Shown here: piece after piece, positions 31,444 through 46,308 of the stretch
How positions within the stretch are numbered: the stretch's first letter is position 1
Layout of the letters: each line of letters begins with the position of its first letter
Assembly (NCBI GenBank): GCA_014860455.1
Contig: JACZJQ010000334.1
Location: 1-46,308 of the forward strand
Direction of reading: 5' to 3'
From: Bryobacteraceae bacterium
GTDB taxonomy: Bacteria; Acidobacteriota; Terriglobia; Bryobacterales; Bryobacteraceae
Length of the DNA stretch: 46,308 nucleotides
The notes under the pieces: model-generated
What the model was told of the DNA's origin: nothing
The model's input: the letters and a program-made list of their open reading frames with translations, nothing else
Database searches by the model: none
Made by a program: the position numbers and the translations under genes

Positions 31444-33486
31444 ATGAAGCAACGACTGTCTACACTGGCATGGATCGCAATCGCCCTCGCCGGCGCCTTC
31501 AGCCTGGCCGGAGTGGCCATCTACCGCGGAGAGTCCATCAATAGCGCCTGGCTCGTCATCGCCTCGGTCTGCACCTACCTCACCGCCTACCGCTTCTACG
31601 GCGCCTTCATCGCCGCCAAGGTCATGGCTTTGGACGACCGCCGCGCCACTCCCGCCGAACGTCTCCGCAATGGCCACGACTTCGAACCCACAAATAAGTG
31701 GATCGTCTTCGGCCACCACTTCGCCGCCATCGCCGGGCCCGGCCCCTTGGTCGGACCCACTCTCGCCGCCCAGTTCGGCTACCTCCCCGGCACCCTCTGG
31801 ATCATCATCGGCGTCGTCATCGGCGGCGCCGTCCAGGACTTCATCATCTTGTTCTCATCGGTCCGCCGCAACGGCAAGAGCCTCGGAGAAATGGCCCGCG
31901 AGGAGATCGGGAAGATCGGTGGAGCCACCGCCCTGCTCACCGTCCTGCTCATCATGATCATCCTGCTCGCCGTCATCGCACTAGTCGTTGTCAACGCCCT
32001 CAAAGGCAGCCCCTGGGGCACTTTCACCATCGCCGCCACCATGCCCATCGCCGTCTTCATGGGCCTTTACCTCCGCTACTGGCGGCCCGGCAAAGTCCTC
32101 GAAGTTTCGCTGATCGGCTTCGGACTCGTCGTCGCCAGCATCTTCGCCGGCGAATGGGTCGCCGGTCACGCCGTTCTCGGACCCTGGTTCACCCTCGGCG
32201 GCATGGCCCTGGCCATCTCGGTCATCATCTACGGCTTCCTCGCCAGCGCTCTGCCGGTCTGGCTGCTGCTCGCCCCGCGCGACTACCTGTCGACCTTCGT
32301 CAAACTCGGCGTCGTCCTCATGCTCGGCGCCGGCATCCTCTTCGTCCGCCCGGAACTCCAGATGCCCGCCCTCACCCGTTTCACCGATGGCACCGGACCC
32401 ATCTTCGCCGGCACTATCTTCCCGTTCTGCTTCATCACCATCGCCTGCGGCGCCATTTCCGGCTTCCACGCCCTCATCAGCTCCGGCACCACGCCCAAGA
32501 TGATCGCCCGCGAAGGACACATCCTCCCGGTCGGCTACGGCTCCATGCTGCTTGAAAGCTTCGTCGCCATGATGGCCATGATCGCCGCCTGCTCGCTCGA
32601 ACCCGGCGTCTTCTTCGCCGTGAATTCACCCGCCGGCATCGTCGGTGCCACGCCCGCCGCCGCCACCGCCACCATCACCTCCTGGGGCTTCCCCGTCACC
32701 CCTGATCAAATGTCCACCCTCGCCAAGCACGTCGGCGAAGATACCCTGTTTTACCGCACCGGCGGCGCCCCCTCGCTTGCCCTCGGCATGGCCCACATCT
32801 TCTCTCAGATCTCCGGCAACGAATCGGTCCTGCGCTTCTGGTACCACTTCGCCATCATGTTCGAGGCCCTGTTCATCCTTACCATCATCGACGCCGGCAC
32901 CCGCGTCGGACGCTTCATGCTTCAGGACTTCCTCGGCCACTTCTATAAACCCCTCGGCCGCACCTCCTGGATGCCGTCCGTCATCCTCACCTCGGCCCTG
33001 ATCGTCTGTGCCTGGGGCTACTTCCTCATCCAGGGCGTCCTCGACCCCCTCGGCGGCATCAACTCCCTCTGGCCCCTGTTCGGCATCGCCAACCAACTGC
33101 TCGCCGCCGTCGCCCTCTGCGTCGCCACCACCATCCTCATCAAGGCCTTCCGCCTCAAATACGCCTGGATCACCATCACCCCGCTCATCTGGCTCGTCAT
33201 CGTCACCTATACCGCCGCCTGGCAGAAAATCTTCTCCGCCGTACCGCGCATCGGTTTCCTCGCTCAGGCCGCCGCCCTCGAAGCCGGCCCGCAATCGGCA
33301 GCCACGAAACAGCTCATCTTCAACAACCGCCTCGACGCCGTCGTCTGCGGCATCTTCCTGGTCCTGGTGACAACAATCCTCGTCGATTCCATCCGCGTCT
33401 GGACCGGCATCCTCAACGGCTCGCGCACCCGCGCCACCACCGAAACCTCCTTCGTCGCCACCCAACTCCAGGCAGGAGAATTCTAA
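31444..33486 (+). CDS. cstA: CstA family carbon starvation protein (pyruvate/peptide transporter)
   Basis: 680 residues, about 16-18 membrane helices. Family landmarks are [45 protein letters not shown] near the N-terminus, [14 protein letters not shown] in the middle, and the [18 protein letters not shown] segment. CstA-type proteins import pyruvate and possibly peptides during carbon limitation and act with a small YbdD/YjiX partner, encoded immediately downstream. TACAAT (31429-31434) lies 9 nt before the ATG, implying a very short leader; no Shine-Dalgarno is visible. Confidence 0.95.
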
Positions 33487-33665
33487 TGATCCGCCTCCTC
33501 AGAGCCTTCGGTTCGATCATCCTCGGTATCCTTCGCGAGATCTCCGACGAATCGGCCTACGCGCGCCACCTCGCCTCGCACGGCCGCCCGCACTCGGGCG
33601 AGGAATACCGCCGCTTCGCCGAATGCCGCCTCCGCCAGAAATACCAGCGCGCCAAGTGCTGCTAG
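33486..33665 (+). CDS. YbdD/YjiX family small protein (CstA partner)
   Basis: 59 residues, [16 protein letters not shown]... ending RQKYQRAKCC. The start A is shared with the last base of the cstA stop (TAATG), and AGGAGA lies about 9 nt upstream, so it is translationally coupled. The pattern SDESAYARHLASHGRPHSGEEYRRFAECRLRQKY matches the Y-x-x-H...P...EEF...R...Y signature of DUF466 (YbdD/YjiX) proteins, which are needed for pyruvate uptake by CstA/BtsT-type transporters. The terminal Cys-Cys is not a typical family feature that I know. Confidence 0.85.
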   Translation: MIRLLRAFGSIILGILREISDESAYARHLASHGRPHSGEEYRRFAECRLRQKYQRAKCC

Positions 33666-33671
33666 GCGGAA

Positions 33672-34001
33672 TTACGCGCCCGCCGCCACGCCCTTCACCA
33701 TCGTCAGCAGCATCACCACTTCGGTCCGCGCCTTGATCGCATGCTCCAACTTCGGCGGCATGTAAGCGAACGCACCCGGCTTGATCTCCTTCGTCTCCCC
33801 GCCCAACTTCACCGTCCCCTCGCCTGAAACGAAGTACAGCGTCGCCGGCATCGGCGCCGTGTGCGCGCTCAACTCTTGCCCCGGCGCAAAGACAAACAGC
33901 ACCACCTTCGACCGGTCGTCAGCTTGGAGCGTCCGGCTCAGAATCCCGTTCTCTGGAATCGGCCCGTGCTCGGCCAGGTTGTCGTGAAAAATGTAGTCCA
34001 T
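33672..34001 (-). CDS. Small single-domain cupin protein
   Basis: 109 residues. A single cupin barrel: VVLFVFAPGQELSAHTAPMPATLYFVSGEGTVKLGG (motif 1, with His and Glu at partially conserved metal positions) and GAFAYMPPKLEHAIKARTEVVMLLTMV (motif 2, with the His). Single cupins may bind metal, sense small ligands or act as isomerases; no substrate can be named. AAGGAGACAC precedes the ATG. It is divergent from the radical SAM gene across a palindromic site, suggesting shared control. Confidence 0.85.
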   Translation of the reverse strand: MDYIFHDNLAEHGPIPENGILSRTLQADDRSKVVLFVFAPGQELSAHTAPMPATLYFVSGEGTVKLGGETKEIKPGAFAYMPPKLEHAIKARTEVVMLLTMVKGVAAGA

Positions 34002-34026
34002 CGTGTCTCCTTACACCCCAATCATG

Positions 34027-34074
34027 GACCGTGCTGGTCGCACTTCTCAGTGACTTTGGTCATATCGACCAAAG
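34027..34074. promoter_or_regulatory. Palindromic operator region between cupin and radical SAM genes
   Basis: A perfect palindrome CTTTGGTC-ATATC-GACCAAAG occupies 34054-34074. A second pair with the same half-sites in everted order, GACC-GTGCT-GGTC, lies at 34027-34039. The GGTC half-sites are 22 bp apart, about two helical turns. A TACAGA box for the radical SAM gene begins 5 bp after the palindrome, so a bound dimer would cover its -35 area. The cognate regulator is unknown; an 8-bp half-site with a 5-bp gap is the size expected for Rrf2-, MarR- or Crp/FNR-type dimers. Confidence 0.6.
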
Positions 34075-34109
34075 AAAGTACAGATTAGTCTTGATCCAGG
34101 AGACCCGCC

Positions 34110-35192
34110 GTGAGAGATTTTTCCGAAGCCCCCTTCCTTGTCATCTGGGAGACCACCCAGGCCTGCGACCTCGCCTGCAAACACTGCCGCGCTTCCGCCC
34201 AACCCGGCCGCGATGCCCAGGAACTCTCCACCAGCGAAGCCAAGGCCCTCCTGCGCCAGGTGAAACGCCTCGGCGACCCCCTCATGGTGTTCACCGGCGG
34301 CGACCCGCTCAAACGCGACGATCTCCTCCAACTGCTCGAATACAGCGTCTCCATCGGCCTCCGCACTACCGTCACCCCCAGCGCCACCCCCCTGCTCACA
34401 GCCGAAGCCATCGAGCGTTTCAAAGCCTGCGGCGTCGCCCGCATGGCCATCTCCATCGATGGACCCGACGCCCAATCCCACGACGATTTCCGCCAGGTCG
34501 CCGGCTCCTTCCAGACCTCCATCGACGCACTGAACTCAGCCCGCGCCTGCGGCCTCGAAACTCAGGTCAACACCACCGTCACCCGCTCCAACCTCCACCT
34601 CCTCGCCGATATCGCCGCCCTCGTCGCCGCCAGCGGAGCCAGGCTCTGGAGCGTCTTCTTCCTCATCGTCACCGGCCGCGCGCAACTCGACGACGACCTC
34701 TCAGCCGCCGAATACGAACAGGTCTTCGAGTTCCTCTACGAAACCAGCCTCATCGCCCCGTTCGACATCAAGACCACCGAAGCCCAGCACTACCGCCGCT
34801 ACGTCGCCCAGCGCCGCAAGCTGGACGGCGTGGCGGGTCCTTCGCGCTCCGGCCATGCCCCGCCCTCCATCGCCCGCCAAGCCGGCATCAATGACGGCAA
34901 GGGCTTTGTCTTCGTCTCCCGCCGCGGCGAAATCTTTCCCTCCGGCTTCCTGTCCATCTCCGCCGGCAACGTCCGCGACGTTGAACTCGGCCACGCCTAC
35001 CGCACCGCCCCCCTGTTCCTCTCCCTGCGCGACAGTTCGCAACTCGACGGAAAATGCGGCGGCTGCGACTTCAAAAACCTCTGCGGCGGTTCCAGATCTC
35101 GCGCCTACGCCCTCACCGGCGACTACCTCGCCTCCGACCCCCGCTGCGTCTACATCCCCGTCCAGTTGCTCACCGGCGCCAGCGCCATGTGA
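34110..35192 (+). CDS. Radical SAM/SPASM-type maturase-like protein
   Basis: 360 residues with a GTG start preceded by AGGAGA. The [4Fe-4S] radical SAM motif CxxxCxxC is C19, C23 and C26 (TTQACDLACKHCRAS). MVFTGGDPL provides the GGE-like SAM site and AISIDGPDAQSHD the family mid-motif. The C-terminal cysteine cluster KCGGCDFKNLCGGSRSRAYALTGDYLASDPRC is SPASM-like and would hold extra Fe-S clusters. The overall style resembles the TIGR04053 and heme-d1/AhbD/NirJ-related group, which modify peptides or tetrapyrroles. No precursor peptide or heme gene is adjacent apart from the cupin. The 3' end overlaps the convergent ASKHA gene by 43 bp. Confidence 0.85.
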   Translation: MRDFSEAPFLVIWETTQACDLACKHCRASAQPGRDAQELSTSEAKALLRQVKRLGDPLMVFTGGDPLKRDDLLQLLEYSVSIGLRTTVTPSATPLLTAEAIERFKACGVARMAISIDGPDAQSHDDFRQVAGSFQTSIDALNSARACGLETQVNTTVTRSNLHLLADIAALVAASGARLWSVFFLIVTGRAQLDDDLSAAEYEQVFEFLYETSLIAPFDIKTTEAQHYRRYVAQRRKLDGVAGPSRSGHAPPSIARQAGINDGKGFVFVSRRGEIFPSGFLSISAGNVRDVELGHAYRTAPLFLSLRDSSQLDGKCGGCDFKNLCGGSRSRAYALTGDYLASDPRCVYIPVQLLTGASAM

Positions 35193-36596
35193 TCCGCGAA
35201 GGCGTCCTGGAAACCCGGATCGGCAGCCAGTTCAACATGCTCGGTCCGCTCAAGCACCCGCCGGATCGACTCATCCCGCCCCCCGGGCTTCAGCAACAAC
35301 TGCCTCACGCCCCTCAGCGCAGTATTGCCTGACGGCGTCACCCGCGCCCGCCTGGGCAGCAGCCCAATGCGCCGTGCCCCGGCCTCGCGCAGGTAGTTGC
35401 CAAACGCTCCGGCAAGATACAGATGCGTGCCCGCGCCGCCCAGCAGCGCCAGCGCTGCCGCCGCCGCACCCTTGGCCAACTGCAACTGCCGCACATCCCC
35501 CTGATACAGCGACACACCATCCCGCAGCCCGATCTCCCCATCCGCCATCCGCCCATTCGGCTTCAACAGCCCCAGGTCCAGGGCTGCCGCAACGGCATCC
35601 ACCAGCCCGCTGCCGCAGATCCCATGCGCCGCCCCGCCGCCCAGCACATGGCACACCATCGCGCCGCCATCAATCCACGCATGATCGATCGCCCCGTCCC
35701 CGGCCCGCATCCCGCGCCTGATTCCGCCCGCCTCAAACGCCGGACCCGCCGCCGTCGATGCGCAACGGATCGCCCCGCCACCAGCAACAGCCACTTCGCC
35801 GTTGGTCCCCAGATCCATGATCGACGCCCGCTCAGCAGCAATATGCAGCCCCGTCGCGATAATCCCGCACAACAGGTCGCTCCCCGCAAACCCGCCGATC
35901 ACCGGCAGAAACTCCACCCGCCCCGCATCCACTCCTGCCTCGTCGCCCGTCATCACAACGGCCTCCGGCTTCGGCGTCCGGAACGGCACCGCCGCCAGCG
36001 GTCCAACATCCAACCCGCCGTACAGATGATGCATCACCGTGTTGCCGCAGATCAGCACTTCCTCCACCGCACGCCCGCCGGCCAACTTCGCCGACATTCG
36101 CGCAATCTGCCGCCGGATCAGTTCTGTCAACATCCCAGGCTGCCGCAGCGCGCTTTCCACGCGACTCATCAGGTCGGCCCCGTGGCGCGCCTGGGCATTC
36201 AGTTCGGCCTCGATGCCGAGAATCTCGCCGGTCGTCAAATCGACAAGCTGCGCGACAACAGTCGTCGTCCCCAGATCCACCGCAATGCCCAACCCCTCGC
36301 GCGGCTCGACCTCCACCTCCGCTTCATCGGTCAGGATCCGCGGCGTCCACTGCGCCACTTCAACCGTCACCGCCCCGTCCGCCTCGGCCTCGCACGCCAG
36401 CCGCCACCCGGCGCTGATCTCATCCGCCTCGAGCGCCCCCCGCATCGTCTCGGTCACACCGACTTCGCCCTCCACCACCCGCACCTTGCAAGTCCCGCAC
36501 CCCGACCCGCCGCCGCAAGGAAACTCCACCCCACTCGAACAACTGGTCTGCCAGCGACTTGCCCACCTCCGGCTCAATCCTCACCCGCCGCGCCAC
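35150..36596 (-). CDS. ASKHA/DUF4445 [2Fe-2S] corrinoid reactivation protein, apparent N-terminal frameshift
   Basis: RamA-like reductive activators re-reduce inactive Co(II) corrinoid proteins. The [2Fe-2S] ferredoxin domain has FPCGGGSGCGTCKVRV and a fourth Cys in RLACEAEA. Then comes the linker and the ASKHA ATPase part (GIAVDLGTTTVVAQLVDLTTGEI, MDLGTNGEVAV, GICGSGLVDAVAAAL, LAGAFGNYL). The natural start is GTG 36596 with GGAG 8 nt upstream, 2 bp after the preceding gene; it reads VARRVRIEPEVGKSLADQLFEW. That frame leaves the ferredoxin frame at a GGGG run (plus-strand CCCC 36529-36532), where removing one G (or adding two bases) restores continuity. The uninterrupted frame alone begins with an unconvincing TTG at 36577. 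It may be a sequencing indel, a recent mutation or programmed slippage. Last gene of the corrinoid operon. Confidence 0.8.
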
Positions 36597-36598
36597 GT

Positions 36599-37609
36599 TC
36601 AGCTCCGCGAACGCGCAAACCGCGCCATCGCCAGCAGGTTCTCATGCGGCGTCCCGCGCGGCACTTCGCAGCCCGCCCCGCAAATCCACCGCGGCCCCGC
36701 CGCCTGCCAGCACTCTTCCAGCGCTGCCGTGATCGACTCCGGCGTCCCGTCCCTCAGCGCCCTCACCGGGTCGATGTTCCCAAGCAGCACCTGGTCGGGA
36801 CCCGACGCCGCACGCGCCTCCCCCATCGGCGTCAGAAAATCCAGATCGACAATCTCGGCCCCCGTCTTCGACATCAGCCCCGCAATCCGCCGCGTGTTGC
36901 CGCAGATGTGCAGCCTCACCGGCACGCCCAACCCCTTCACCCGTTCAATCAACCGGCACTCGGCCGGATACACATGCTGCTCGTATAGCTTCGGCCCGAT
37001 CAACGATGCCGCCGCGTCGCCGATGCCCATCAACGTTGCCCCCGCCTCCACCTGCGCCTTCGCAAACCTGAACTCCATCTCCATCACAAACTCGAACAGG
37101 TCCTCGACAAACCCCGGGTCGTCGTAGAAATCCAGCATCAGCGTGTTCACGCCGCGCAGGTCCGCCGCCATCGCGCACGGCCCTTCAATCCAGCCTTCGA
37201 CGATATGCGTCGAGCCTGCCCGCTCGGCCAGCATCGCCGCCCCCGCCACACGGTCCCTCATCCGCTCGCCCGCATGTGGATCCGGCACTTCCAGCTTCGC
37301 CAGCGTCGCCTTATCCTCGATCAACGCCCGCGACTCGATAATCGCCGGCGGCTGATTGTCAAACCATTCGATCGCCGCGCCCAAATCCGACGCCTCCCGC
37401 GCCGGGTCCGAAATCACCGAAACATAATCCGTGTCAAATGTTTCAGCGATCCGCAGCTGCGCCTCCGCCAGCTTCCGGTAATCCCGCGCATACTCCCCAT
37501 ACGCGATCCCGCTGCAGTCGCCCGCGAACATCATCGTGATCGGCATGAAGGGCAGCGCGTCCAGCGCCTCCCCGGCGATCATGCTCAGGATGCGCTGTTT
37601 GCCGTTCAC
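36599..37609 (-). CDS. UroD-family methyltransferase (MtaA/MtbA-like)
   Basis: 336 residues. Start MNGKQRILSMIAGEALDALPFMPI is typical of MtaA/CmuA-type proteins of the uroporphyrinogen decarboxylase fold. The zinc-binding set His234-x-Cys236 (RLHICGNT) and Cys314 (CGAGCEVPRGTPHENL) is complete, as in corrinoid:coenzyme methyltransferases and unlike true HemE. It should move a methyl group between the corrinoid protein and a thiol or other acceptor. It lies 3 bp after the DUF1638 gene and 2 bp before the ASKHA gene. Of the three UroD-like proteins in the operon, this is the closest to the MtaA pattern. Confidence 0.85.
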   Translation of the reverse strand: MNGKQRILSMIAGEALDALPFMPITMMFAGDCSGIAYGEYARDYRKLAEAQLRIAETFDTDYVSVISDPAREASDLGAAIEWFDNQPPAIIESRALIEDKATLAKLEVPDPHAGERMRDRVAGAAMLAERAGSTHIVEGWIEGPCAMAADLRGVNTLMLDFYDDPGFVEDLFEFVMEMEFRFAKAQVEAGATLMGIGDAAASLIGPKLYEQHVYPAECRLIERVKGLGVPVRLHICGNTRRIAGLMSKTGAEIVDLDFLTPMGEARAASGPDQVLLGNIDPVRALRDGTPESITAALEECWQAAGPRWICGAGCEVPRGTPHENLLAMARFARSRS

Positions 37610-37612
37610 CTC

Positions 37613-38338
37613 TCAGCTCCTCTCTGCCGTCACAATCCGTTCATCGTATCGCGCCGTGAACCGCTCGCCCGGCTTGGCAACGGCGAAGTCGTCCGACTCC
37701 CATTCGCCCCAAACAAATCGCCTGAAAATGTCCAGGCTCCCCTTCACCGCCTCAAAACGCCAGCCCCGCGTCTCCGCCTCGCGCACGGCTTCATCGTGGA
37801 AACTCGCATCCGGCTCCAGGCCCGTCTCGATATACACAAGCCTGCTGTAGTTGGCCTGATACCGCGTCATCTCATCGTAGAGGTAGCGTCCGTTGTCCTC
37901 GCCGTACCTCTCAATGAACTCATCCAGCGAGATCCCGATCCCCGTCCGGTTCATCACCAGTTGCTCCAACCCCGCGCCCCGCTCCAGCCAGCCCGTCGAG
38001 CGGAAATAGGTCCCCGGCTCTTCGGTCACAATCTGCACATACCGCTCGCGGCTGCCCAGCAGCAGCGCGATGCAGTCGTGCGCCCGCATCGCCACCACCG
38101 GCGTTGTCCTCGCCGTGATCCCGTGCAGCCCGTTGCCGCACAGCGCGTAGCCCAGCAGCACGGCGTCGTAGCCGTTGGTCTCGTCCACCCGCTTTTGCAG
38201 CTCGCGCGACATCGCCGCCCCGCCCAGGTCATGCAGTCCCTTGCTCAGAAACTCCACGTCCACCTGATGCGGCGAACGCGCCACCGCGTCGCACATCTCG
38301 CGGAACAGCACTTCGCAACTGATCAGCTTGAGGCGCAT
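37613..38338 (-). CDS. DUF1638 domain protein
   Basis: 241 residues matching the DUF1638 pattern: LISCEVLFREMCDAVARSP at the N-terminus, YDAVLLGYALCGNGLHGITARTTPVVAMRAHDCIALLLGSRERY in the centre, and EPGTYFRSTGWLER. Members recur beside corrinoid methyltransferase genes in methanogens and anaerobic bacteria, but their function is unknown. Cys8, Cys in GYALCGNG and His in AHDC could form a metal or cofactor site. The start overlaps the preceding homocysteine methyltransferase-like gene by 16 bp, so the two are probably translationally coupled. Confidence 0.85.
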   Translation of the reverse strand: MRLKLISCEVLFREMCDAVARSPHQVDVEFLSKGLHDLGGAAMSRELQKRVDETNGYDAVLLGYALCGNGLHGITARTTPVVAMRAHDCIALLLGSRERYVQIVTEEPGTYFRSTGWLERGAGLEQLVMNRTGIGISLDEFIERYGEDNGRYLYDEMTRYQANYSRLVYIETGLEPDASFHDEAVREAETRGWRFEAVKGSLDIFRRFVWGEWESDDFAVAKPGERFTARYDERIVTAERS

Positions 38339-39201
38339 CGTTTACGCTCGGCCACCAGCGCCTCGATAAACTCCGGCGACGTACCGCAGCAGCCGCCCAC
38401 GAAGCACGCGCCCGCGTCCAGCAGGCCCGCCAGATGCGCCGCAAACGGCGCCGCCCCCATCGAATAGGAAATCACGCCCGCCTCCACCACCGGCATCCCC
38501 GCATTCGGCTTCAACCAGATCGGCAAATCGCAAGTATCCCTGAACCGCACGCCAATCCCGGCGAACGACTCCGGCCCCGCCCCGCAGTTGGCGCCAATCG
38601 CCGACGCCCCTTCATCCGCCATCCGCTTGGCCGCCTGCTCCGGCGTCACGCCCATCATCGTCCGGTCTTTGTTCTTGCCCGAATCGAACGCAAAGCTCAC
38701 CACCACCGGCAACCCGGTCGCAAGCGACGCCCGCAACGCGATCGACGCCTCCTCCAGATCGCTGAACGTCTCCAGCAGCAGCGCATCCGGACGCGCCTCC
38801 GCCAGCGCCGCCGATTGCATCGCGAACGCCCGCTCAATGCCCGCCTCGTCGATCTCGCCCGTCATCATCATCTTCCCCGTCGGACCCATCGACGCCACCA
38901 CCCGCGCCTTGCCCGCCGCCGCCCGCCGCGAAATCTCAACACCCGCGACGTTCACCTCGCGCACCTTCTCCTCCGACGCGCCTTCAAGGCTCACCCGGTT
39001 CGCCCGGAACGTATTCGTCAGAATGATCTCGCTGCCCGCCGCCACATACAGCCGCGCCACGCCCTCCACCAGCTCCGCATGGTCGAGGTTCCAGAAGTCC
39101 GGGCACACCCCCGGCGCCAGCCCGCGCTGCTGCATCTGCGTACCCCAGGCGCCGTCGGTAATCAGCGGCCCGTTGTGGAGCCAGTCAAGCAGTGGGTTCA
39201 T
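38323..39201 (-). CDS. Homocysteine S-methyltransferase family protein
   Basis: 292 residues, a Hcy-binding/BhmT-fold barrel like the N-terminal domain of MetH. Substrate-loop segments DGAWGTQMQQRG and TNTFRANRVSL are present, and the three zinc thiolates are intact: Cys206 (GANCGAGP) and Cys271-Cys272 (GGCCGTSP). It could accept a methyl group on homocysteine from the neighbouring corrinoid protein, giving methionine. A pterin-binding methyltransferase for tetrahydrofolate is absent from the operon, which makes this the only evident acceptor module besides the UroD proteins. Overlaps the MFS gene by 4 bp. Confidence 0.85.
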   Translation of the reverse strand: MNPLLDWLHNGPLITDGAWGTQMQQRGLAPGVCPDFWNLDHAELVEGVARLYVAAGSEIILTNTFRANRVSLEGASEEKVREVNVAGVEISRRAAAGKARVVASMGPTGKMMMTGEIDEAGIERAFAMQSAALAEARPDALLLETFSDLEEASIALRASLATGLPVVVSFAFDSGKNKDRTMMGVTPEQAAKRMADEGASAIGANCGAGPESFAGIGVRFRDTCDLPIWLKPNAGMPVVEAGVISYSMGAAPFAAHLAGLLDAGACFVGGCCGTSPEFIEALVAERKRCASS

Positions 39202-40529
39202 GACTTGTATTCCTTCCAGAATCCTTCAATCTCCTCCAATGTACGGTTTTTCGTCTCCGGCGTCAGCCTCCACACAAACCACGCCGTGAACGCGCACATC
39301 CCCGCATAGATGTAAAACGCACCTGTCGGGCCCAGCGCCGTCGTGATGCTCAGAAACGTCATCGTCAATACCGTACACGCCACCCATAACGAAAGCGTCG
39401 CAATCGACATCGCCCGCCCGCGAATCCGGTTCGGGAAGATCTCCGACAACACCACCCACACCCCCGGCCCCAGCCCTACCGCGAACGACGCAACGCACAT
39501 CAGCATCAACGTGATCACCAGCGCCGCCGGCGGCGGCGTCATCCGGAACACCAGCGCCAGCCCCGTCAGGCTCAGCCCCATCATTGTCGACGAGAAGATC
39601 AGCAGCGCCTTTCTCCCCACCCTGTCAATCAGCGCTATGGCGACAATCGTGAACAGAAAATTCACCGCACCGATCAGCACGTTCGCCCCGATCGCCGCCG
39701 ACGCCGAATGCCCGCCCACCTTGTCCTGCAGGATGATCGACCCATAGAACAACACCGTATTCACGCCCGACCATTGCTGCATCACCGCCAGCACAATCGC
39801 GATGAACAGCGCCCGCCTGATGCCCGGCTGAAACAGTTCCTTCCATGTCCCGGACTCCTCCGCCACAGCCGCGCGAATCTCAACCAGCTCGATCTCGGCC
39901 GCCTGCTGTCCGTTCACCCGCGCCAGGATCCGCAGCGCTTCGGCTTCCTTGCCCATCTCCACCAGCCAGCGCGGACTCTCCGGCACAAAGAACAACGCCA
40001 CCAGGAAAAACACCGCCGGCGCCGCCGCCACCGCAAACATCCATCGCCAGCTTTGGTCGCCCTGGAAACTCAGCACCCAGTTCGTCGCGTACGCCAGCAG
40101 GATGCCCGTCACAATCGCCATCTGGTTTAGCGAAACCAGCCGCCCGCGCAGCCTCGCCGGCGCCACCTCCGCGATATACAACGGCGCCAGCACCGACGCC
40201 ACTCCAATCGCCACCCCGCCCAGTATCCGCGCCACGGCAAACTCGGTCAGGTTCCTCGGCAGCGCCGCCCCCAGCGCCGACGCCGCGAACAGGACCGCCG
40301 ACGCCATCAACACAATCCGCCGCCCGTACCGGTCGCTGAACCACCCGCCAACAGCCGCCCCCGCAATGCACCCGCTCAGCAGCGCCGACGCCGCCAGCTC
40401 CGTCTGAAACTCCGTCAGCGCCCACTGCTTCTTCAGAAACACAATCGCGCCATTGATCACCGCGATGTCGAATCCAAACAGCAGCCCCGACGTCGCCGCC
40501 ACCAGCGAAACCACCCAGACGTAGATCAT
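39198..40529 (-). CDS. MFS sugar porter (sugar:H+ symporter type)
   Basis: 443 residues, 12 membrane helices. Sugar-porter signatures are all present: GGWFSDRYGRRIVL (loop 2-3), PESPRWLVEMGKEAEALRIL after helix 6, DRVGRKALLIFSS (loop 8-9), SEIFPNRIRGRAMSIAT and the C-terminal PETKNRTLEEIE. The nearest styles are XylE/GalP/AraE, importing pentoses, hexoses or cyclitols. It sits between methyltransferase genes with 4-bp overlaps on both sides, so it is certainly co-expressed with them. This is the main hint that the methylated substrate is sugar- or cyclitol-like. Confidence 0.93.
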   Translation of the reverse strand: MIYVWVVSLVAATSGLLFGFDIAVINGAIVFLKKQWALTEFQTELAASALLSGCIAGAAVGGWFSDRYGRRIVLMASAVLFAASALGAALPRNLTEFAVARILGGVAIGVASVLAPLYIAEVAPARLRGRLVSLNQMAIVTGILLAYATNWVLSFQGDQSWRWMFAVAAAPAVFFLVALFFVPESPRWLVEMGKEAEALRILARVNGQQAAEIELVEIRAAVAEESGTWKELFQPGIRRALFIAIVLAVMQQWSGVNTVLFYGSIILQDKVGGHSASAAIGANVLIGAVNFLFTIVAIALIDRVGRKALLIFSSTMMGLSLTGLALVFRMTPPPAALVITLMLMCVASFAVGLGPGVWVVLSEIFPNRIRGRAMSIATLSLWVACTVLTMTFLSITTALGPTGAFYIYAGMCAFTAWFVWRLTPETKNRTLEEIEGFWKEYKS

Positions 40530-41572
40530 TCGCGTCCTTCCGCCAACAGGATTTCAACTTTTTTCAGAATCGTCCCCGACGCCCCTTCCACATGCAGCAC
40601 GTCGCATTCCGATCCGAGAATGTGCGGGTGCCCTGTCTCTTCCATGCGCCCCGCCAGCTCGCGCGTCATGCTTGCCACCAGTTCACACGGCATATCGGCG
40701 TCTGAGTAAAACATCCGCGTCGGCAGATTCCCAAACAAAACGACGTCATCGGGCACAAGCGCCGCATCTTGCCACAGCTTCCTCGACGACCCCATGCTCA
40801 ACACTGACGGGTGAATCACATGCCCGAACGCACGCACCATCTTGTCGTCCAGATGCCCGCAGTTGTGGAAAATCAGATCCACCCCGGCCTCATCCATCAG
40901 CGATCTCACTCGCAGGTTCGGCTCCAGCACGAATCGCGCAAACGCCCCCTCGCTCTTCGCCAGTTGCCTCGGCGACAAAAAGACGATATTCGCCGCCGGC
41001 TCGCATATGATCATCGCCCGCGCCCCGGCTTCAATCTGCGCTTTCACCGATCGCGCCACCGCCGCCTCGGCCAGCCGGCAACATCGCTCAACCGCCGCCA
41101 CCCCCGCGTCCTCTTCCGCCGTCACTCCCGATAGCGCCATCGCCAGCGGCGTGATCGGATCGGCCAGCAGCTTCGTCATCAATGAAAACGGCCCGATCGC
41201 CATCCCCACCGGCATCAGTTCCGTGTTCGCCGCCACCCACTCGATCGCCCCGATCTGCGCCCGCTGCCGCTCCGGGAACCCGCCCTCCGCATACACTTCC
41301 TTCGCCGGGCCGGTCTCGAAGTGAAACCTGTCGGCCTGCTCTTCGCCCATGCCATAGGCCGCCAGCAGGTCGGCTTTCTCCAACCGCAGATCCATCAGCG
41401 GAATCGCCAGCGGCGTCTTCCACCGCGCCGCCGATTCCGCCACAACTCGCCCCAGCCCCGCCCCATCGCGCCGCACATCTTCTGCATCGTCGCGTTGATT
41501 GAGGACCAGGTCTGTCCCCACAATAGCCCTGTGCCGCCCTGCGGCAAGGCGGAGGAAGTATTCCCGCGCCAT
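40526..41572 (-). CDS. UroD-family methyltransferase (second copy)
   Basis: 348 residues, UroD/MtaA fold, with the zinc-binding set His236-x-Cys238 (FHNCGHLDDK) and Cys323 (GSECDVLHVEG) retained. The N-terminal part differs from the 36599 protein (long RDDAEDVRRDGAGLGRVVAESAARW segment; DLRLEKADLL), suggesting a different methyl donor or acceptor. Follows the corrinoid gene by 8 bp and overlaps the MFS gene by 4 bp. A role as substrate:corrinoid methyltransferase (MT1) or corrinoid:acceptor enzyme (MT2) cannot be decided from sequence. Confidence 0.82.
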   Translation of the reverse strand: MAREYFLRLAAGRHRAIVGTDLVLNQRDDAEDVRRDGAGLGRVVAESAARWKTPLAIPLMDLRLEKADLLAAYGMGEEQADRFHFETGPAKEVYAEGGFPERQRAQIGAIEWVAANTELMPVGMAIGPFSLMTKLLADPITPLAMALSGVTAEEDAGVAAVERCCRLAEAAVARSVKAQIEAGARAMIICEPAANIVFLSPRQLAKSEGAFARFVLEPNLRVRSLMDEAGVDLIFHNCGHLDDKMVRAFGHVIHPSVLSMGSSRKLWQDAALVPDDVVLFGNLPTRMFYSDADMPCELVASMTRELAGRMEETGHPHILGSECDVLHVEGASGTILKKVEILLAEGRE

Positions 41573-41580
41573 GCTCGCGC

Positions 41581-42213
41581 TCAGTTCGCGATGCTGCGCG
41601 CCAGCGCCACCGCGCCGCTGGCCGTCTCGCTATAGCCGTCCGCCCCGATCTCCTTCGCGTACTGTTCGGTCACCGGCGCGCCGCCCACAAACACCTTCAC
41701 CTGCTGCCTCACTCCCGCCGCGTCCAGCGCCTCGATCGTCTTCTTCATCGATGGCATCGTCACCGTCAGCAGCGCCGACAAACAAACAATGTTGGCCCCA
41801 GATGTTCTTACCGCCTCGATGAACTTCTCCGGCGACACGTCCGCGCCAAGGTCCATCACTTCAAACCCGCCACCTTCCAGCATCGACGCCACCAGGTTCT
41901 TCCCGATGTCGTGCAAATCCCCCTTCACCGTCCCGATCACCACCCGCCCCGCCGGCTGCGCCCCGCTCGCCGCCAGCAACGGACGCAAGTACGCCAGCGC
42001 AGCCTTCATCGCCCGCGCCGCCAGCAGCAGCTCCGGAACGAAATACTCCTCGGCTTCATATCGCCGGCCCACTTCGTCCATCGCCGGCACCATGTAGCCC
42101 GAGATCAGCTTCACCGGATCGGCGCCCTCGGCCAGCGCCTCCTGCGTCACCGCCGACGACGTCTTCGCATCGCCGTCCAGGATCGCGTCATAGAGTTTTT
42201 GCAGGTCTGCCAT
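41581..42213 (-). CDS. Corrinoid (B12-binding) methyl-carrier protein
   Basis: 210 residues, the normal size for MtaC/MttC/MtvC-type proteins. An N-terminal helical cap domain (about 1-85; EGADPVKLISGYMVPAMDEVGRRYEAEEYFVPELLLAARAMKAAL) is followed by a Rossmann-like B12 domain with the cobalt-ligand motif D99-x-H101-x-x-G104 (GTVKGDLHDIGKNLV), EGGGFEVMDLGADV and FVGGAPVTEQYAKEIGADGY. It shuttles the methyl group between two methyltransferases as methyl-Co(III)/Co(I). Two UroD-like genes flank it directly, and the ASKHA protein at the operon end would reactivate it after oxidation. Confidence 0.95.
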   Translation of the reverse strand: MADLQKLYDAILDGDAKTSSAVTQEALAEGADPVKLISGYMVPAMDEVGRRYEAEEYFVPELLLAARAMKAALAYLRPLLAASGAQPAGRVVIGTVKGDLHDIGKNLVASMLEGGGFEVMDLGADVSPEKFIEAVRTSGANIVCLSALLTVTMPSMKKTIEALDAAGVRQQVKVFVGGAPVTEQYAKEIGADGYSETASGAVALARSIAN

Positions 42214-42237
42214 ATTCGCTCCAATTAAAATCGTTGT

Positions 42238-43497
42238 CTAGCCGCGGCCGCCAAATTCCCTCACCGCATCGAGCATCGCCACCACATTCTGCACCGGCGT
42301 CTCCGCCTGGATGTTGTGAATCGTGTTGAACACAAACCCGCCGCCTTCGGCGAACACCTCGCACCGCTCCAGCACTTGCCGCCTGACCTCTTCAGGCGTA
42401 CCGAACGGCAGCGTCTTCTGCGTATCCACACCCCCTCCCCAAAACGTGATCCGCTCTCCAAACGTCTCCTTCAGGTGCCGCGGCTCCATCCCCGCCGCAG
42501 AACACTGCACCGGATTCAAAATGTCAAAACCCGCTTCGATCAGCGGCTCGATGAACCGCTCCACTGATCCACAGGAATGTTTGAAACACTTCCACCCCGT
42601 GTTGGCATGGATCCATCCGCAAATCTGTTTGTAGTACGGCAGCCACAGTTCCCTGAACGTGGCCGTCGAACAAAACGTCGAACTCTGCGTCCCGAAGTCG
42701 GTCCCGCACAAAAACAGCGCCCCCGGCATATCGCCCACCGCGCTGTGAATCGCCGCCAGGTTGCCAAGCGCGATCTCGCACTGCCGGCTGAAAATCGCAT
42801 GGACATAATCCCTGCGCGCCCGCGTCGAGACATACCATTCGGTCACATCGCGAATCCCTCGCGGATCTTTGGCAAACGGCGCCGGCACCAGCGCGATGTC
42901 GCCAAACGCCGTGCCTCCAAGCCCCGCCACCACATACCGCCCCGTCGCATGCGCCGCCCGCACATCTTCCGCGATCTCGCCGATCTCGGCCTCGGTCAGC
43001 GGCTTGAACTCCTCAAGATTGTCCGCCGGATCCAGGCACTCCTCATCGAAGTGCCTCTGCCGGATAATCGAATCGAAGAAGAACCCGCCCTTCGGCATCC
43101 GCCCCGATGGCGCCGCCGACATGTCGCCTTCCGGATGCACCAGCACATCGCCGGCCTCGTCAATCGTCACATTGAACTCGCCCGCCACAAGCACTTCCAG
43201 CCCGTTGAACACCCACGGCTTCCAGTCCTTGTTCTCAATGCCGAACATGTTCTTGCGCCGGTACACGCCCGCCGTGTCGATCCCCATCGCCGCGATCAGA
43301 TCCTCATCGATCCAGCCCAGCATCTGATACGGCTCATGCACCTTCACCGGCCGCCGTTCCAGCCCGTAGTGTTCGCGCAGCGCCGCCACAACCGAAACAT
43401 GAATCCCTGTCACCGCCGTCGCGCCGAAATCAATCGGCACACGCCCGGCCCGCCGGTGCTGAACGGCAGCGGCGACGCACTGTCTGGAATCGCTCAT
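42238..43497 (-). CDS. UroD-family methyltransferase-like protein, first gene of the corrinoid operon
   Basis: 419 residues from ATG 43497 (MSDSRQCVAAAVQHRRAGRVPIDFGAT); the open frame extends upstream but runs through the promoter. A long UroD-fold protein carrying His307-x-Cys309 (FKHSCGSVERFIEPLIEAGFDILNPVQ). At the position where the other two proteins have the third zinc ligand Cys, this one has FVFNTIHNIQ, with His394 as a possible replacement. The missing Cys sets it apart from MtaA-like enzymes; it may be the substrate-specific methyltransferase. No clear Shine-Dalgarno; the predicted mRNA starts about 7 nt before the ATG. Confidence 0.82.
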   Translation of the reverse strand: MSDSRQCVAAAVQHRRAGRVPIDFGATAVTGIHVSVVAALREHYGLERRPVKVHEPYQMLGWIDEDLIAAMGIDTAGVYRRKNMFGIENKDWKPWVFNGLEVLVAGEFNVTIDEAGDVLVHPEGDMSAAPSGRMPKGGFFFDSIIRQRHFDEECLDPADNLEEFKPLTEAEIGEIAEDVRAAHATGRYVVAGLGGTAFGDIALVPAPFAKDPRGIRDVTEWYVSTRARRDYVHAIFSRQCEIALGNLAAIHSAVGDMPGALFLCGTDFGTQSSTFCSTATFRELWLPYYKQICGWIHANTGWKCFKHSCGSVERFIEPLIEAGFDILNPVQCSAAGMEPRHLKETFGERITFWGGGVDTQKTLPFGTPEEVRRQVLERCEVFAEGGGFVFNTIHNIQAETPVQNVVAMLDAVREFGGRG

Positions 43498-43510
43498 CGT
43501 GTCAGCGACA

Positions 43511-43539
43511 AGAGTATCGAAAACTCCCGTATCGGTCAA
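43511..43539 (-). promoter_or_regulatory. Promoter of the corrinoid operon
   Basis: On the minus strand TTGACC (43539-43534), a 17-bp spacer and TACTCT (43516-43511). The predicted start near 43504 leaves about 7 nt before the ATG at 43497. Only 15 bp separate this -35 from the -35 of the divergent GH116 promoter. Confidence 0.6.
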
Positions 43540-43554
43540 TGATCCACCCTCCGC

Positions 43555-43582
43555 TTGACACCCGCGCCAGACGCGATAAAGT
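43555..43582 (+). promoter_or_regulatory. Promoter of the GH116 gene
   Basis: A perfect TTGACA (43555-43560), a 16-bp spacer and TAAAGT (43577-43582). The -10 box ends 6 nt before the ATG at 43589, so transcription should begin at the start codon itself. No Shine-Dalgarno is present. Confidence 0.7.
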
Positions 43583-43588
43583 TGCCCC

Positions 43589-46150
43589 ATGGCAACAAGA
43601 CGAAGAGACTTCCTGAAGTCGATGCCCGCAGCCGCCGCGGCCGCTGCCCAGCCCCCCACGATCGGACCCTCAACGCCCCGCATGGGATGGCCTCGCCGCT
43701 TCACCGGCCGCGCCCTGGCCCAGATCGCCATGCCTCTCGGCGGCGTCGCCGCCGGCTCCATCAGCCTCGGCGGACGCGGAAATCTCCGCGATTGGGAGAT
43801 CTTCAACCGCCCCGACAAAGGCAACCAGCCCGCCCAGGTCTTCGCCTCGGTCTGGGCTCAGGCCGCCGGCTCGAAGCCTGTCGCCATGGTCGCCGAGTCC
43901 CGCCACCTGCCGCCATTCGAAGGACAGAACGGTCTCGGCGCCAACAACGTCCCCGGCCTGCCGCGCCTGCAAAACGCGGTCTTCCACGCCTCCTACCCCA
44001 TCGCCCGCATCGACTTCTCAGACCGCCTCCTCCCCGTCAAACTCTCGCTCGAAGCCTTCACCCCCGTCATCCCTCTCGCCGAGAACGACTCCGGCTATCC
44101 CGCCGCCGTCCTCCGCTACAAGGCCACAAACCCCACCTCCTCCCCCGTCGATGTCGCTCTCGCCTTCTCCCTCGAAAACCCCGTCGGCACAGGCGAAGCC
44201 CGCAACAACTCTCCCGTCTCGGCCCCCGGCATCAAGGGCATCATGATGACCAACTCCAGGCTCGCCGCCGACGATCCGCTCCAAGGCTCCTTCGCCCTCT
44301 CCACCCCCTTCCAGGGCGAGGTCTCCATCTGGCGCGGCTGGCCCCGCAACCGTTGGTTCAACTCGCCCATGCTGTTCTGGGACCAGTTCTCCGTCAACGG
44401 CCGTCTCGGCGAAGACCCTGCCAAACCCGGACCCGTCGGCGTCGTCTGCCTTCGCGCAACAATCCCCGCCGGCGGCTCCGTCGAGTTCCCATTCATCCTC
44501 AGTTGGCACTTCCCCAACCGCACCCCCGAGCGCTGCCGCTGGACCGCCCCCAAGGGCGAGGAGAAAACCGTCATCGGCAACTGGTACTGCTCCCGCTTTC
44601 CCGACGCCTGGTCCGCCGCCAAAGACTTTTCCTCCCGCCTCCCCGATCTCGAACGCCGCGGCCGCGCCTTCGTCACCGCACTCGCCGAATCCACCATGCC
44701 CGCCGAAATCAAGGACGCCGCTTCGGCCAACCTCTCCACCCTCGCCACCCAAACCGTCTTCCGCACCCTCGACGGCGAGTTCCACGGCTTTGAAGGTTCC
44801 AACGACAAAGCCGGCTGCTGCTTCGGCTCCTGCACCCACGTCTGGAACTACGAATCCACCACCGCCCACGTCTTCCCCGGACTCTCGCGCTCCATGCGCC
44901 GCATGGCCTTCGTCCACACCCTCGACGACAAAGGCGGTATGCGCTTCCGCCTCCTCCTGCCCGCCGGCCGCCAACTGTTCGGCTTCGCCGCCACCGACGG
45001 CCAGATGGGCCAGATCATGAAGGCCTACCTCGATTGGAAACTCTCCGGTGACGACGTCTGGCTGCGCGCCATCTGGCCCCAGGTCAAGCGCGCCATGGAG
45101 TTCTCCTGGGTCGATGGCGGCTGGGATGCCGACCGCGACGGCGTCACCGAAGGCGTCCAGCACAACACCTACGACGTCGAGTTCTACGGGCCTAACCCCC
45201 AATGCGGCATTTACTACCTCGGCGCGCTCAAAGCCTCCGCCGAAATGGCCGCCGCCATGGGCGATGCCGGCTTCGCCTCCGCCTGCAAATCGCTGTTCGA
45301 ACGCGGCGCCGCCTGGACCGACTCCAACCTCTTCAACGGCGAATACTACATCCAGAAGGTTGTCGGCGCCGACCGCTCCTCCATCGCCCCCGGACTGCTC
45401 TCCTCCATGGGCTCCGAGGACACCAAAAACCCCGAATACCAGATGGGCGAAGGCTGCCTCGTCGATCAACTGATCGGCCAGTACCAGGCCGACGTTTGCG
45501 GCCTCGGCGACCTGCTCAAATCAGCCAACATCCGCAAGTCTCTTGAATCCGTCTATCGCTACAACTACCGCCGCGACCTCTCCTCGCACGAAAACCCCCA
45601 GCGCACTTTCGCCGTCAGCGACGAAAGCGGCCTGCTGGTCTGCGACTACGGCAAAAAGCCCCGCCCCAAAATCCCGTTCCCCTATTACGCCGAAGTCTGG
45701 ACCGGCTTTGAATATTCCGCCGCCGCCCAGATGATGTGGGCCGGCATGGTCGACCAGGGCATCGAGATCATCCGCTCGGCCCGCCTCCGCCACGACGGCG
45801 AGAAACGCAACCCCTTCGACGAACCCGAATGCGGCCACCACTACGCGCGCGCTATGTCCGCCTGGTCCCCCTTGCTCGCCTGGAACGGCTTCGACTACAG
45901 CGCGCCCAAACGCCGCCTGTCAGTCCATCCCAAACGCATGCCCCGCGTCGGACCCTTCAAGGGCTTCTGGTCCACCGGAACAGGATGGGGCGATTTAGTT
46001 TGGAACCGAAACTCCCTCGAACTCCGCGTCATCGAAGGCCGCCTCGCCGTCGACTCTCTCATCCACGGCGGCGAAACCATCGCCCTCGCCGGCCCGCAAG
46101 TCGCCGAGCCCGGCCGCCCGCTTGTCTGGAAGCGCCCTGCGAAGGCGTAG
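43589..46150 (+). CDS. Tat-exported GH116-family glycosidase (GBA2-like)
   Basis: 853 residues. Tat signal with TRRRDFLKSM, then an N-terminal beta domain (about 45-360) opening with IAMPLGGVAAGSISLGGRGNLRDWEIFNRP, the conserved start of the GBA2-type N-domain. The (alpha/alpha)6 catalytic domain (about 420-800) contains KYLDWKLSGDD-type repeats, DADRDGVTEGVQHNTYDVEFYGPNPQCGIYYLGALKA with the conserved NTYD/E region, and YAEVWTGFEYSAAAQMMWAGM. GH116 enzymes are retaining beta-glucosidases, beta-xylosidases or glucosylceramidases. Divergent from the corrinoid operon on a shared promoter region, suggesting a common substrate. Numerous long open frames on both other strands here are composition artefacts. 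Confidence 0.9.
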   Translation: MATRRRDFLKSMPAAAAAAAQPPTIGPSTPRMGWPRRFTGRALAQIAMPLGGVAAGSISLGGRGNLRDWEIFNRPDKGNQPAQVFASVWAQAAGSKPVAMVAESRHLPPFEGQNGLGANNVPGLPRLQNAVFHASYPIARIDFSDRLLPVKLSLEAFTPVIPLAENDSGYPAAVLRYKATNPTSSPVDVALAFSLENPVGTGEARNNSPVSAPGIKGIMMTNSRLAADDPLQGSFALSTPFQGEVSIWRGWPRNRWFNSPMLFWDQFSVNGRLGEDPAKPGPVGVVCLRATIPAGGSVEFPFILSWHFPNRTPERCRWTAPKGEEKTVIGNWYCSRFPDAWSAAKDFSSRLPDLERRGRAFVTALAESTMPAEIKDAASANLSTLATQTVFRTLDGEFHGFEGSNDKAGCCFGSCTHVWNYESTTAHVFPGLSRSMRRMAFVHTLDDKGGMRFRLLLPAGRQLFGFAATDGQMGQIMKAYLDWKLSGDDVWLRAIWPQVKRAMEFSWVDGGWDADRDGVTEGVQHNTYDVEFYGPNPQCGIYYLGALKASAEMAAAMGDAGFASACKSLFERGAAWTDSNLFNGEYYIQKVVGADRSSIAPGLLSSMGSEDTKNPEYQMGEGCLVDQLIGQYQADVCGLGDLLKSANIRKSLESVYRYNYRRDLSSHENPQRTFAVSDESGLLVCDYGKKPRPKIPFPYYAEVWTGFEYSAAAQMMWAGMVDQGIEIIRSARLRHDGEKRNPFDEPECGHHYARAMSAWSPLLAWNGFDYSAPKRRLSVHPKRMPRVGPFKGFWSTGTGWGDLVWNRNSLELRVIEGRLAVDSLIHGGETIALAGPQVAEPGRPLVWKRPAKA

Positions 46151-46154
46151 CCGC

Positions 46155-46308
46155 TCAGAACCGGTACATCATCTCGAGATAGCCGAACGCACCGTCCTTG
46201 CACTGCGGGTAGATCCTCGCCATCGCGCTCTTGCCGATGGCGTACCCGTAGAATCCTGACAGCGTCACATTCGGCCTCACGTTCCAATCGGCGCTCGCGT
46301 CGTAATAC
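46155..46308 (-). CDS. Outer-membrane beta-barrel protein, C-terminal end (alginate-export-like; partial)
   Basis: The last 50 residues of a minus-strand gene cut by the window edge; stop codon at 46155-46157. The visible sequence (YYDASADWNVRPNVTLSGF ... YLEMMYRF) shows alternating hydrophobic beta-strands and ends in an aromatic Phe, as needed for BAM-dependent outer membrane insertion. The style resembles alginate-export family barrels of Acidobacteriota. It ends 4 bp after the convergent GH116 gene. Family assignment is tentative because most of the protein is missing. Confidence 0.6.
   Translation of the reverse strand, partial: YYDASADWNVRPNVTLSGFYGYAIGKSAMARIYPQCKDGAFGYLEMMYRF

Follow-up and report, generated by a model that had tools for sequence, protein, structure and literature searches.

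The window examined here is a stretch of 46,308 nucleotides from a Bryobacteraceae bacterium (contig C107 of a genome of 5.29 Mb in 356 contigs, 95.4% complete), and its subject is a group of eight open reading frames (ORFs) on the minus strand, 35150 to 43497, in which the gene for a sugar porter is embedded among genes for corrinoid-dependent methyl transfer (Table 1). In the order of transcription these genes code for Uro419, the corrinoid protein Corr, Uro348, a sugar porter of the major facilitator superfamily (MFS), a homocysteine methyltransferase-type protein (HcyMT), a DUF1638 protein, UroA336 and a RACo-type activase, where Uro419, Uro348 and UroA336 are working names given by length to three proteins of the UroD superfamily. 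According to the ORF coordinates, adjacent genes are separated by gaps of 24, 8, 3 and 21 bp or overlap by 4, 4 and 16 bp; the ATG at 43497 was taken as the start of Uro419, and a longer ORF with a TTG start reaching 43824 was set aside.

The initial annotation had claimed such an eight-gene operon with overlaps or gaps of at most 24 bp and the same set of components, and both statements held, since the ORFs were found at the place given and all eight have Pfam matches over cut-off. Likewise, the claimed corrinoid motif D99-x-H101-x-x-G104 is matched exactly, and the three zinc-type cysteines claimed for HcyMT were located at Cys206, Cys271 and Cys272, within GANCG and GGCCG. The divergent gene, described there as a glycosidase of family GH116 exported by twin-arginine translocation, indeed has PF12215 and PF04685 together with a twin-arginine-like RRDFLK at its N terminus.

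Table 1. Features of the operon and of the divergent gene in the window
Feature	Coordinates	Strand	Evidence
Uro419, UroD superfamily, proposed methyl-donor methyltransferase (MT1, substrate:corrinoid)	42238..43497	-	PF01208; His307-Cys309-His394
Corrinoid protein (Corr), MtxC type, D99xH101xxG104	41581..42213	-	PF02607, PF02310
Uro348, second UroD-superfamily protein, His-Cys-Cys thiol-methyltransferase-like site	40526..41572	-	PF01208 46 bits; H236/C238
Sugar-porter MFS, XylE/GlcP-like	39198..40529	-	Sugar_tr; TIGR00879 369.6 bits (cut-off 237.8)
HcyMT, homocysteine S-methyltransferase-type, proposed acceptor side (methionine)	38323..39201	-	PF02574 (S-methyl_trans) 201 bits; Cys206/271/272
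DUF1638 protein, conserved core component	37613..38338	-	PF07796
UroA336, MtaA/CmuA-like UroD, His-Cys-Cys; proposed methylcorrinoid:thiol methyltransferase	36599..37609	-	URO-D; TIGR01463 146.8 bits (cut-off 235.4)
Reductive activase for Corr, RACo type, ATP-dependent	35150..36577	-	PF14574, PF17651, PF00111
GH116 glycosidase, divergent, predicted exported, exo-beta-D-arabinofuranosidase-like	43589..46150	+	PF12215 180.7 bits, PF04685 139.1 bits

Conservation of the core and association with the porter

With respect to the conservation of the operon, 101 relatives including the genome itself were compared, 61 of them from the same family. Genomes with a protein of at least 55% identity to Uro419 over the matched part, in some cases on short contigs, were counted as carriers (31/101). 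Corr (at least 67% identity) is present in 29 of the 31 carriers and in four of the 70 non-carriers, and the two carriers devoid of it are represented by genomes that are 62% and 81% complete. Reading of the gene order in 40 stretches around Uro419 copies revealed a block Uro419-Corr-(Uro348)-HcyMT-DUF1638-UroA336-RACo that recurs in many genera, as well as further, solitary copies of Uro419. Around Corr itself, in 18 stretches mostly away from Uro419, at least one of the HcyMT, DUF1638, UroA336 and RACo genes lies beside it in 15 and at least two in 10. Since Corr tracks Uro419 and the core genes cluster with Corr even away from Uro419, the latter looks like a donor-side module that is able to use a shared corrinoid module. 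In addition, a corrinoid domain of the TIGR02370 type is found in 38 of 39 genomes behind other loci of the wider scan described below, and in 35 of these it is free-standing and near full length as judged by ORF size and coverage.

The porter scores above the curated cut-off of TIGR00879 and so belongs to the sugar-porter MFS. It aligns to XylE with an E-value of 1e-84, whereby Q168, Q288, Q289, N294, N325, W392 and W416, which like the following residues we take to be sugar contacts in XylE, are kept, and the alignment has changes at Q175, Y298 and Q415. At an identity of at least 53% it occurs in 25 of the 101 genomes, i.e., in 22 of the 31 carriers of Uro419 versus three of the 70 others, with two of the 25 (G001, G051) resting on a partial or broken gene, and the association persists within the 61-genome family (table 22, 6, 3, 30; p = 4e-8). 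Among the relatives read, only the window, G003, G002 and G017 have the porter inside the block; elsewhere it sits at a distance or on a separate contig. One such porter gene outside the Uro419 block, in G014 (L166), has an HcyMT gene after it.

A wider scan covered one genome for each of 84,980 species and yielded at least 582 relatives of Uro419, the best 80 loci of which (56-91% identity) were used, with taxon names taken from the titles of the records of metagenome-assembled genomes (MAGs). A porter lies 21-121 bp from Uro419 in 14 of these 80 loci and is beside it or in its gene block in 16. The adjacent ones come from KSB1 (L109), Planctomycetota (L122), Bacteroidota (L153), Hydrogenedentota (L156), Aminicenantes (L110, L116, L125, L129, L130, L142), Verrucomicrobiota (L158) and Acidobacteriota (L090, L161), and from L112, which bears the title Actinomycetota and has a Uro419 that clusters with those of KSB1; in L082, on a contig of G003, and in L087 the porter is farther along the block. 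Some of the adjacent porters are broken (L110, L130) or truncated where the contig stops (L112, L125, L129). By BLAST, the first non-core neighbour is a window-like porter in 16 of 158 cases from 100 distinct loci, as compared to none of 124 among the genes five to seven places off in the same loci (p = 9.3e-5), and the 16 porters are 44-91% identical to that of the window except for one with 39%. In accordance with this, Pfam Sugar_tr was found in 16 of 110 near proteins and does not appear in the list of 25 families for the far set of 110, and MFS_1 in 16 of 110 near versus two of 110 far proteins; for the near set, too, 25 families were listed, out of 137.

On a quick tree of Uro419 with 112 rows, counting the porter of L112 and leaving uncounted 17 rows from truncated loci, the adjacency requires 10 or 11 changes, eight of which are forced by starred branches. 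As eight forced changes speak for an adjacency that arose or was lost repeatedly and not for one simple inheritance, the porter is, on this tree, gained or lost as a neighbour of Uro419 several times over. The suggested tie of the methyl-transfer system to sugar uptake is therefore supported by the recurrence of the porter across phyla above the control and by its co-occurrence in the 101 relatives. For GH116 the outcome differs: homologous clusters consistently devoid of porter and GH116 had been named as evidence against the proposal, and this objection holds for GH116 but not for the porter, even though most single loci have no porter (16 of the best 80 have one beside Uro419 or in its block).

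Carbohydrate genes around Uro419

The GH116 protein, for which both Pfam families exceed their cut-offs, is far closer to the exo-beta-D-arabinofuranosidase 8ic6 (E-value 5.5e-145) than to the best GH116 glucosidase (2.7e-28). Its gene is whole beside Uro419 in the window only. In the sister genome G003 (L062:8376-9130) it is cut down to residues 1-127 beside 728-852 in two frames, and the called genes of the other loci include GH116 a single time, at a distance of four genes from a Uro419 (L054). With a deletion remnant in G003 and a single further sighting, GH116 was rejected as a conserved partner, contrary to what had been supposed at first.

The distribution of GH120 tells another story. 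It is rare, with a single match in each of 11 of the 101 relatives, every one of which carries Uro419 (p = 5e-7; within the family p = 5e-5; within the family minus the own genus p = 1.5e-4). When the genomes that had raised the idea (G000, G014, G019) are taken out, eight of eight remain carriers (p = 2e-5; within the family 6e-4). GH115, a family acting on xylan side chains and taken as control, is not associated, as five of 19 genomes with GH115 and 26 of the 82 others carry Uro419 (p = 0.79). GH120 also occurs in 10 of the 39 genomes behind the other scan loci. The distance of GH120 homologues from Uro419 or the porter is one to three genes at L049 (the own genome), L208, L156, L122 and L143 and seven genes at L207. 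The protein of L049 is a full-length, XylC-like member of GH120 that matches the xylosidase 3vst with an E-value of 2.8e-177 over residues 22-634. This locus (contig C46, L049:2106-7939) holds the second Uro419 of the genome (61% identity), accompanied by a galactonate-type MFS gene, a divergent GH28 gene and GH120 beyond, with no corrinoid gene called nearby; thus, each of the two such copies of Uro419 in the genome has genes for an MFS transporter and a divergent glycosidase as neighbours.

Further neighbours of a sugar-related type, assigned by family scans and in part by similarity, comprise an FKP-type gene (L043), GH36 (L073), a Gfo/Idh gene with a xylose-isomerase-like barrel and GHL6 (L069), GntP (L059), sulfatases (L064, L067), GH28 (L046, L104), GH78 (L055), GH29 (L154), GH106 (L109), GH4 (L138), GH2 (L158) and AXE1 (L156). 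Since carbohydrate families are encountered in the far control as well, glycosidases in general are not counted as evidence here. 4-O-methylglucuronoxylan as a specific substrate reached via GH115 was rejected, given the lack of co-occurrence and the absence of GH115 from the own genome. In G005, a GH115 gene is located about 5 kb from a copy of Uro419 (C64:22363-29814).

Active sites and the methyl acceptor

The genome has 12 matches to the URO-D family. For Uro419, no PDB sequence was matched at an E-value of 0.01 and no NCBIfam cut-off was reached; its AlphaFold model (pLDDT 89.7) has the UroD/MtbA fold, with a Z score of 23.3 to 4ay7 (3.7 Å over 309 residues). Across the best 80 loci H307 and C309 are conserved in 80 and H394 in 79, the remaining one having a gap. 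The third position of this site is Cys in UroA336, in Uro348 and in the MtbA-type protein 4ay7, unlike the His of Uro419, as judged from the alignment. UroA336 matches 4ay7 with an E-value of 1e-13, its LHICGN and its C-terminal Cys being aligned, and is the only UroD protein of the window with a good MtaA/CmuA score, albeit one below cut-off. According to Kountz and Balskus (PMC10418091), S-methyltransferases of the UroD superfamily, including those acting on sulfur or selenium compounds, have a His-Cys-Cys site, and in the O-methyltransferases one or both cysteines are replaced. Measured by this rule, the invariant His-Cys-His makes Uro419 look like an enzyme for a non-thiol methyl donor, and Uro348 and UroA336 look like thiol enzymes.

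Corr reaches 193 bits for TIGR02370, below the cut-off of 215.3, and apart from two ORFs of MetH size the genome has no other match of this type. Both a stand-alone corrinoid protein with DxHxxG (at residue 99) and a reductive activase with PF14574 and PF17651, as in three-component systems, are thus present. The activase ORF is apparently frameshifted near its start (36500-36620, minus strand), so that the ferredoxin-like Fer2 N-terminal half is divided between two frames; G003, the sister genome (L062), has it in one continuous frame, and the frameshift may be an assembly error or a real lesion.

On the acceptor side, PF00809 is confined in the own genome to a 282-aa ORF of FolP size and two ORFs of MetH size, none of them a free-standing candidate for folate transfer, and PF02007 gave no match, at a completeness of 95.4%. 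Folate was therefore set aside as acceptor, with about 5% of the genome missing, and since no free-standing folate methyltransferase was found the methyl group is probably passed on to homocysteine or another thiol. Two MetH-type genes of the genome reside on contigs C288 and C313. A PF02574 homocysteine module beside a separate corrinoid protein is the arrangement of the MtgBCDE type, for which a free-standing PF00809 partner (MtgD) was not found in the own genome. According to PMC12478193, a similar module ties demethylation to methionine synthesis in the respiring Ruegeria pomeroyi. The COX1 (heme-copper oxidase) family is twice over its cut-off in the window's own genome, which suggests that the host respires oxygen.

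The DUF1638 protein has six residues that are invariant in 21 sequences (C8, H36, C67, H87, D88 and C89) and perhaps form a metal site. A Foldseek search with it gave nothing at an E-value of 0.001, and the best VIA-align score, to folds of the sugar-repressor type, was Z 8.0 (3.7 Å, 138 residues), in a range deemed uninformative. At several loci (L045:5837-8674, L080:10588-13431, L096, L098) a gene of the TauE/SafE type and then one of the acetate-kinase family, assigned by Pfam for L045 and by clustering for the others, follow a Uro348-like gene or Uro419; these neighbours hint at a step in which a sulfur compound serves as acceptor or is exported.

The methyl donor and competing explanations

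The operon is conserved, and Uro419, Corr, the porter and GH120 are statistically tied to each other. We consider it fairly probable that they belong to a corrinoid methyl-transfer system removing O-methyl groups from sugars, that is, from O-methyl pentoses or hexoses and possibly from O-methyl cyclitols or methyl glycosides, with a xylose-type methyl sugar perhaps the likeliest donor as far as the context tells. A B12 system for O-methyl sugars had been proposed in the initial annotation, and of that proposal the tie to sugar uptake was borne out by the porter and by the co-occurrence of GH120, whereas the tie to GH116 was not. In such a pathway, extracellular glycosidases would free the methylated sugar, and the porter, going by its family and its conserved sugar-site residues, would take it up. 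Once the methyl group had been moved to Corr by Uro419, HcyMT and/or the His-Cys-Cys UroD proteins would pass it to homocysteine or another thiol and not to folate, no folate-type second methyltransferase (MT2) having been found, while the RACo-type activase would, like its family, re-reduce corrinoid that had slipped to Co(II). More tentatively, it is possible that B12-dependent demethylation of O-methyl sugars, with xylose-type ones leading, crosses phyla among respiring as well as anaerobic degraders of carbohydrates, the methyl group going to homocysteine or a thiol, and that Uro419 founds a family of sugar-specific UroD O-demethylases with a His-Cys-His site.

Several observations weigh against a sugar as the donor. 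The porter occurs without Uro419 in three genomes, nine carriers of Uro419 are without the porter, and most single Uro419 loci have none alongside; the porters adjacent to Uro419 were tried as one clade and are not monophyletic. Only three of the 11 genomes with GH120 (the own genome, G014 and G019) have it at a distance of up to 10 kb from Uro419 or the porter. The sugar-related neighbours are heterogeneous (GH120, GH28, GH78, GH36, GH29, GH106, GH4, FKP, sulfatase) and pin down no single sugar, and ill-fitting ones exist as well, such as an amino-acid permease, pirin, a MacB-like permease, an OPT transporter, EF-G, SurA and a Tle1-like protein, several others being without family; the Aminicenantes loci have an amino-acid-permease-type gene in four of six and pirin in three of six in place of glycosidases. 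Among the 25 commonest families listed per set, the far control likewise contains GH2, xylose-isomerase-like, oligogalacturonate-lyase and sulfatase-modifying families, so that a general enrichment of glycosidases near Uro419 is not demonstrable against this in-locus control. Moreover, the co-occurrence tests leave phylogeny partly in, and most of the genomes are MAGs with possibly misplaced contigs. A His-Cys-His site does not by itself establish that the donor is an O-methyl compound, and CdmB works without zinc (PMC13222342).

The main rival is methoxydotrophy, in which Uro419 would demethylate methoxylated aromatics such as lignin monomers in the manner of MtvB, OdmB and VdmB and the porter would be incidental. 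The UroD-superfamily O-demethylases known from PMC13222342 do use methoxyaromatics, and in peatland, expressed mtxB genes of Acidobacteriota have been assigned to methanol and methoxylated compounds (PMC10805028). However, the 25 near-neighbour families listed of 137 include none for aromatic catabolism, the recurring transporter is a XylE-like sugar porter, GH120 tracks Uro419, and a stand-alone folate MT2, such as those systems use, was not found in the own genome; hence we regard this explanation as unlikely. Salvage of methyl-sulfur or methyl-selenium compounds, as proposed for type 1 mlp clusters with their UroD paralogues, corrinoid protein and activase, would involve broadly the same set of genes (PMC10418091), and would fit the His-Cys-Cys sites of Uro348 and UroA336, the presence of HcyMT within the operon and a TauE-family exporter in four of 110 near neighbours. 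Yet Uro419 has His-Cys-His in 79 of the best 80 loci (with one gap), and mlp clusters are reported only from obligate anaerobes (PMC10418091), as opposed to a genome with heme-copper oxidase genes. Salvage would also leave the link to a sugar porter and a xylosidase unexplained, and it appears the least probable of the alternatives.

It is also conceivable, and only slightly less improbable than salvage, that porter and glycosidases supply ordinary sugars and that the donor is a small C1 compound from plant litter, i.e., methanol from pectin, chloromethane or betaine. Pectin yields methanol, and GH28 and pectate-lyase-type genes are near some loci; however, neither MtaB, which acts on methanol, nor the MttB-family enzymes for betaines are known to belong to the UroD superfamily, and the most recurrent neighbour is the porter and not a pectin gene, in addition to the association with GH120.

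When compared to known systems, the operon shares with the three-component corrinoid systems (MtxB/MtxC/MtxA with Ram/RACo) a candidate MT1 of the UroD type, a corrinoid protein, an MtaA-like protein and an ATP-dependent activase in one operon, but no MT2 for methyl-tetrahydrofolate was found, HcyMT and DUF1638 belong to the core, a sugar porter is included and Uro419 stays below the NCBIfam cut-offs. With the UroD O-demethylases MtvB, OdmB, VdmB and MtoB and the haloalkane enzyme CdmB it has the superfamily, the corrinoid protein and the activase in common, and it appears to differ in its sugar instead of aromatic neighbourhood and its His-Cys-His site. Type 1 mlp clusters (PMC10418091) likewise have several UroD paralogues, a corrinoid protein and an activase and no folate methylase in the cluster; here, HcyMT and DUF1638 are part of the core, one UroD has His-Cys-His, respiratory oxidases exist and the neighbours relate to sugars, not to sulfur or selenium. 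The His-Cys-Cys signature of the mlp type (some Mlp1 excepted) is present in Uro348 and UroA336 but not in Uro419. MtgBCD(E) of Ruegeria pomeroyi (PMC12478193) also combines corrinoid demethylation in respiring bacteria with a split homocysteine methyltransferase module, but its MT1, which takes glycine betaine, belongs to PF06253, and it has the pterin-binding MtgD, no counterpart of which was found in the own genome. The transporter and exported glycosidase families, in turn, are those of the sugar porters XylE and GlcP and of the GH116 enzyme 8ic6, here placed beside a B12 methyltransferase operon where GH116 is not conserved.

The glycans of plants, algae, lichens and bacteria commonly carry O-methylated sugars as end caps or decorations, and a known route for the demethylation of such sugars is an oxygen-dependent P450 acting on 6-O-methyl-galactose. 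Holophaga foetida, an acidobacterium, is reported to carry out a sulfide-methylating O-demethylation; its name is absent from the literature matches listed. Among those matches in the open literature, by titles and the beginnings of abstracts, none deals with corrinoid demethylation of sugars, subscription papers lying mostly outside this set. The operon with its built-in porter and the pairing across several phyla suggest an undescribed way of removing methyl groups from methylated sugars. If so, this would provide a B12 route independent of oxygen that could recycle the methyl group into methionine or a methyl thiol. It would also assign a function to a UroD family that is named by fold alone in many MAGs, and some environmental mtxB genes counted as methylotrophy on methanol or methoxyaromatics could be sugar demethylases.

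An Rfam search of 33400-46308 gave nothing at the gathering threshold, so that no known cobalamin or S-adenosylmethionine riboswitch was found there. The 3' end of the operon is followed at 33672-35192 by two further genes, one cupin-like and one for a radical SAM protein of the TIGR04053/AhbD-like type, which occupy the same position in G003 and G002.

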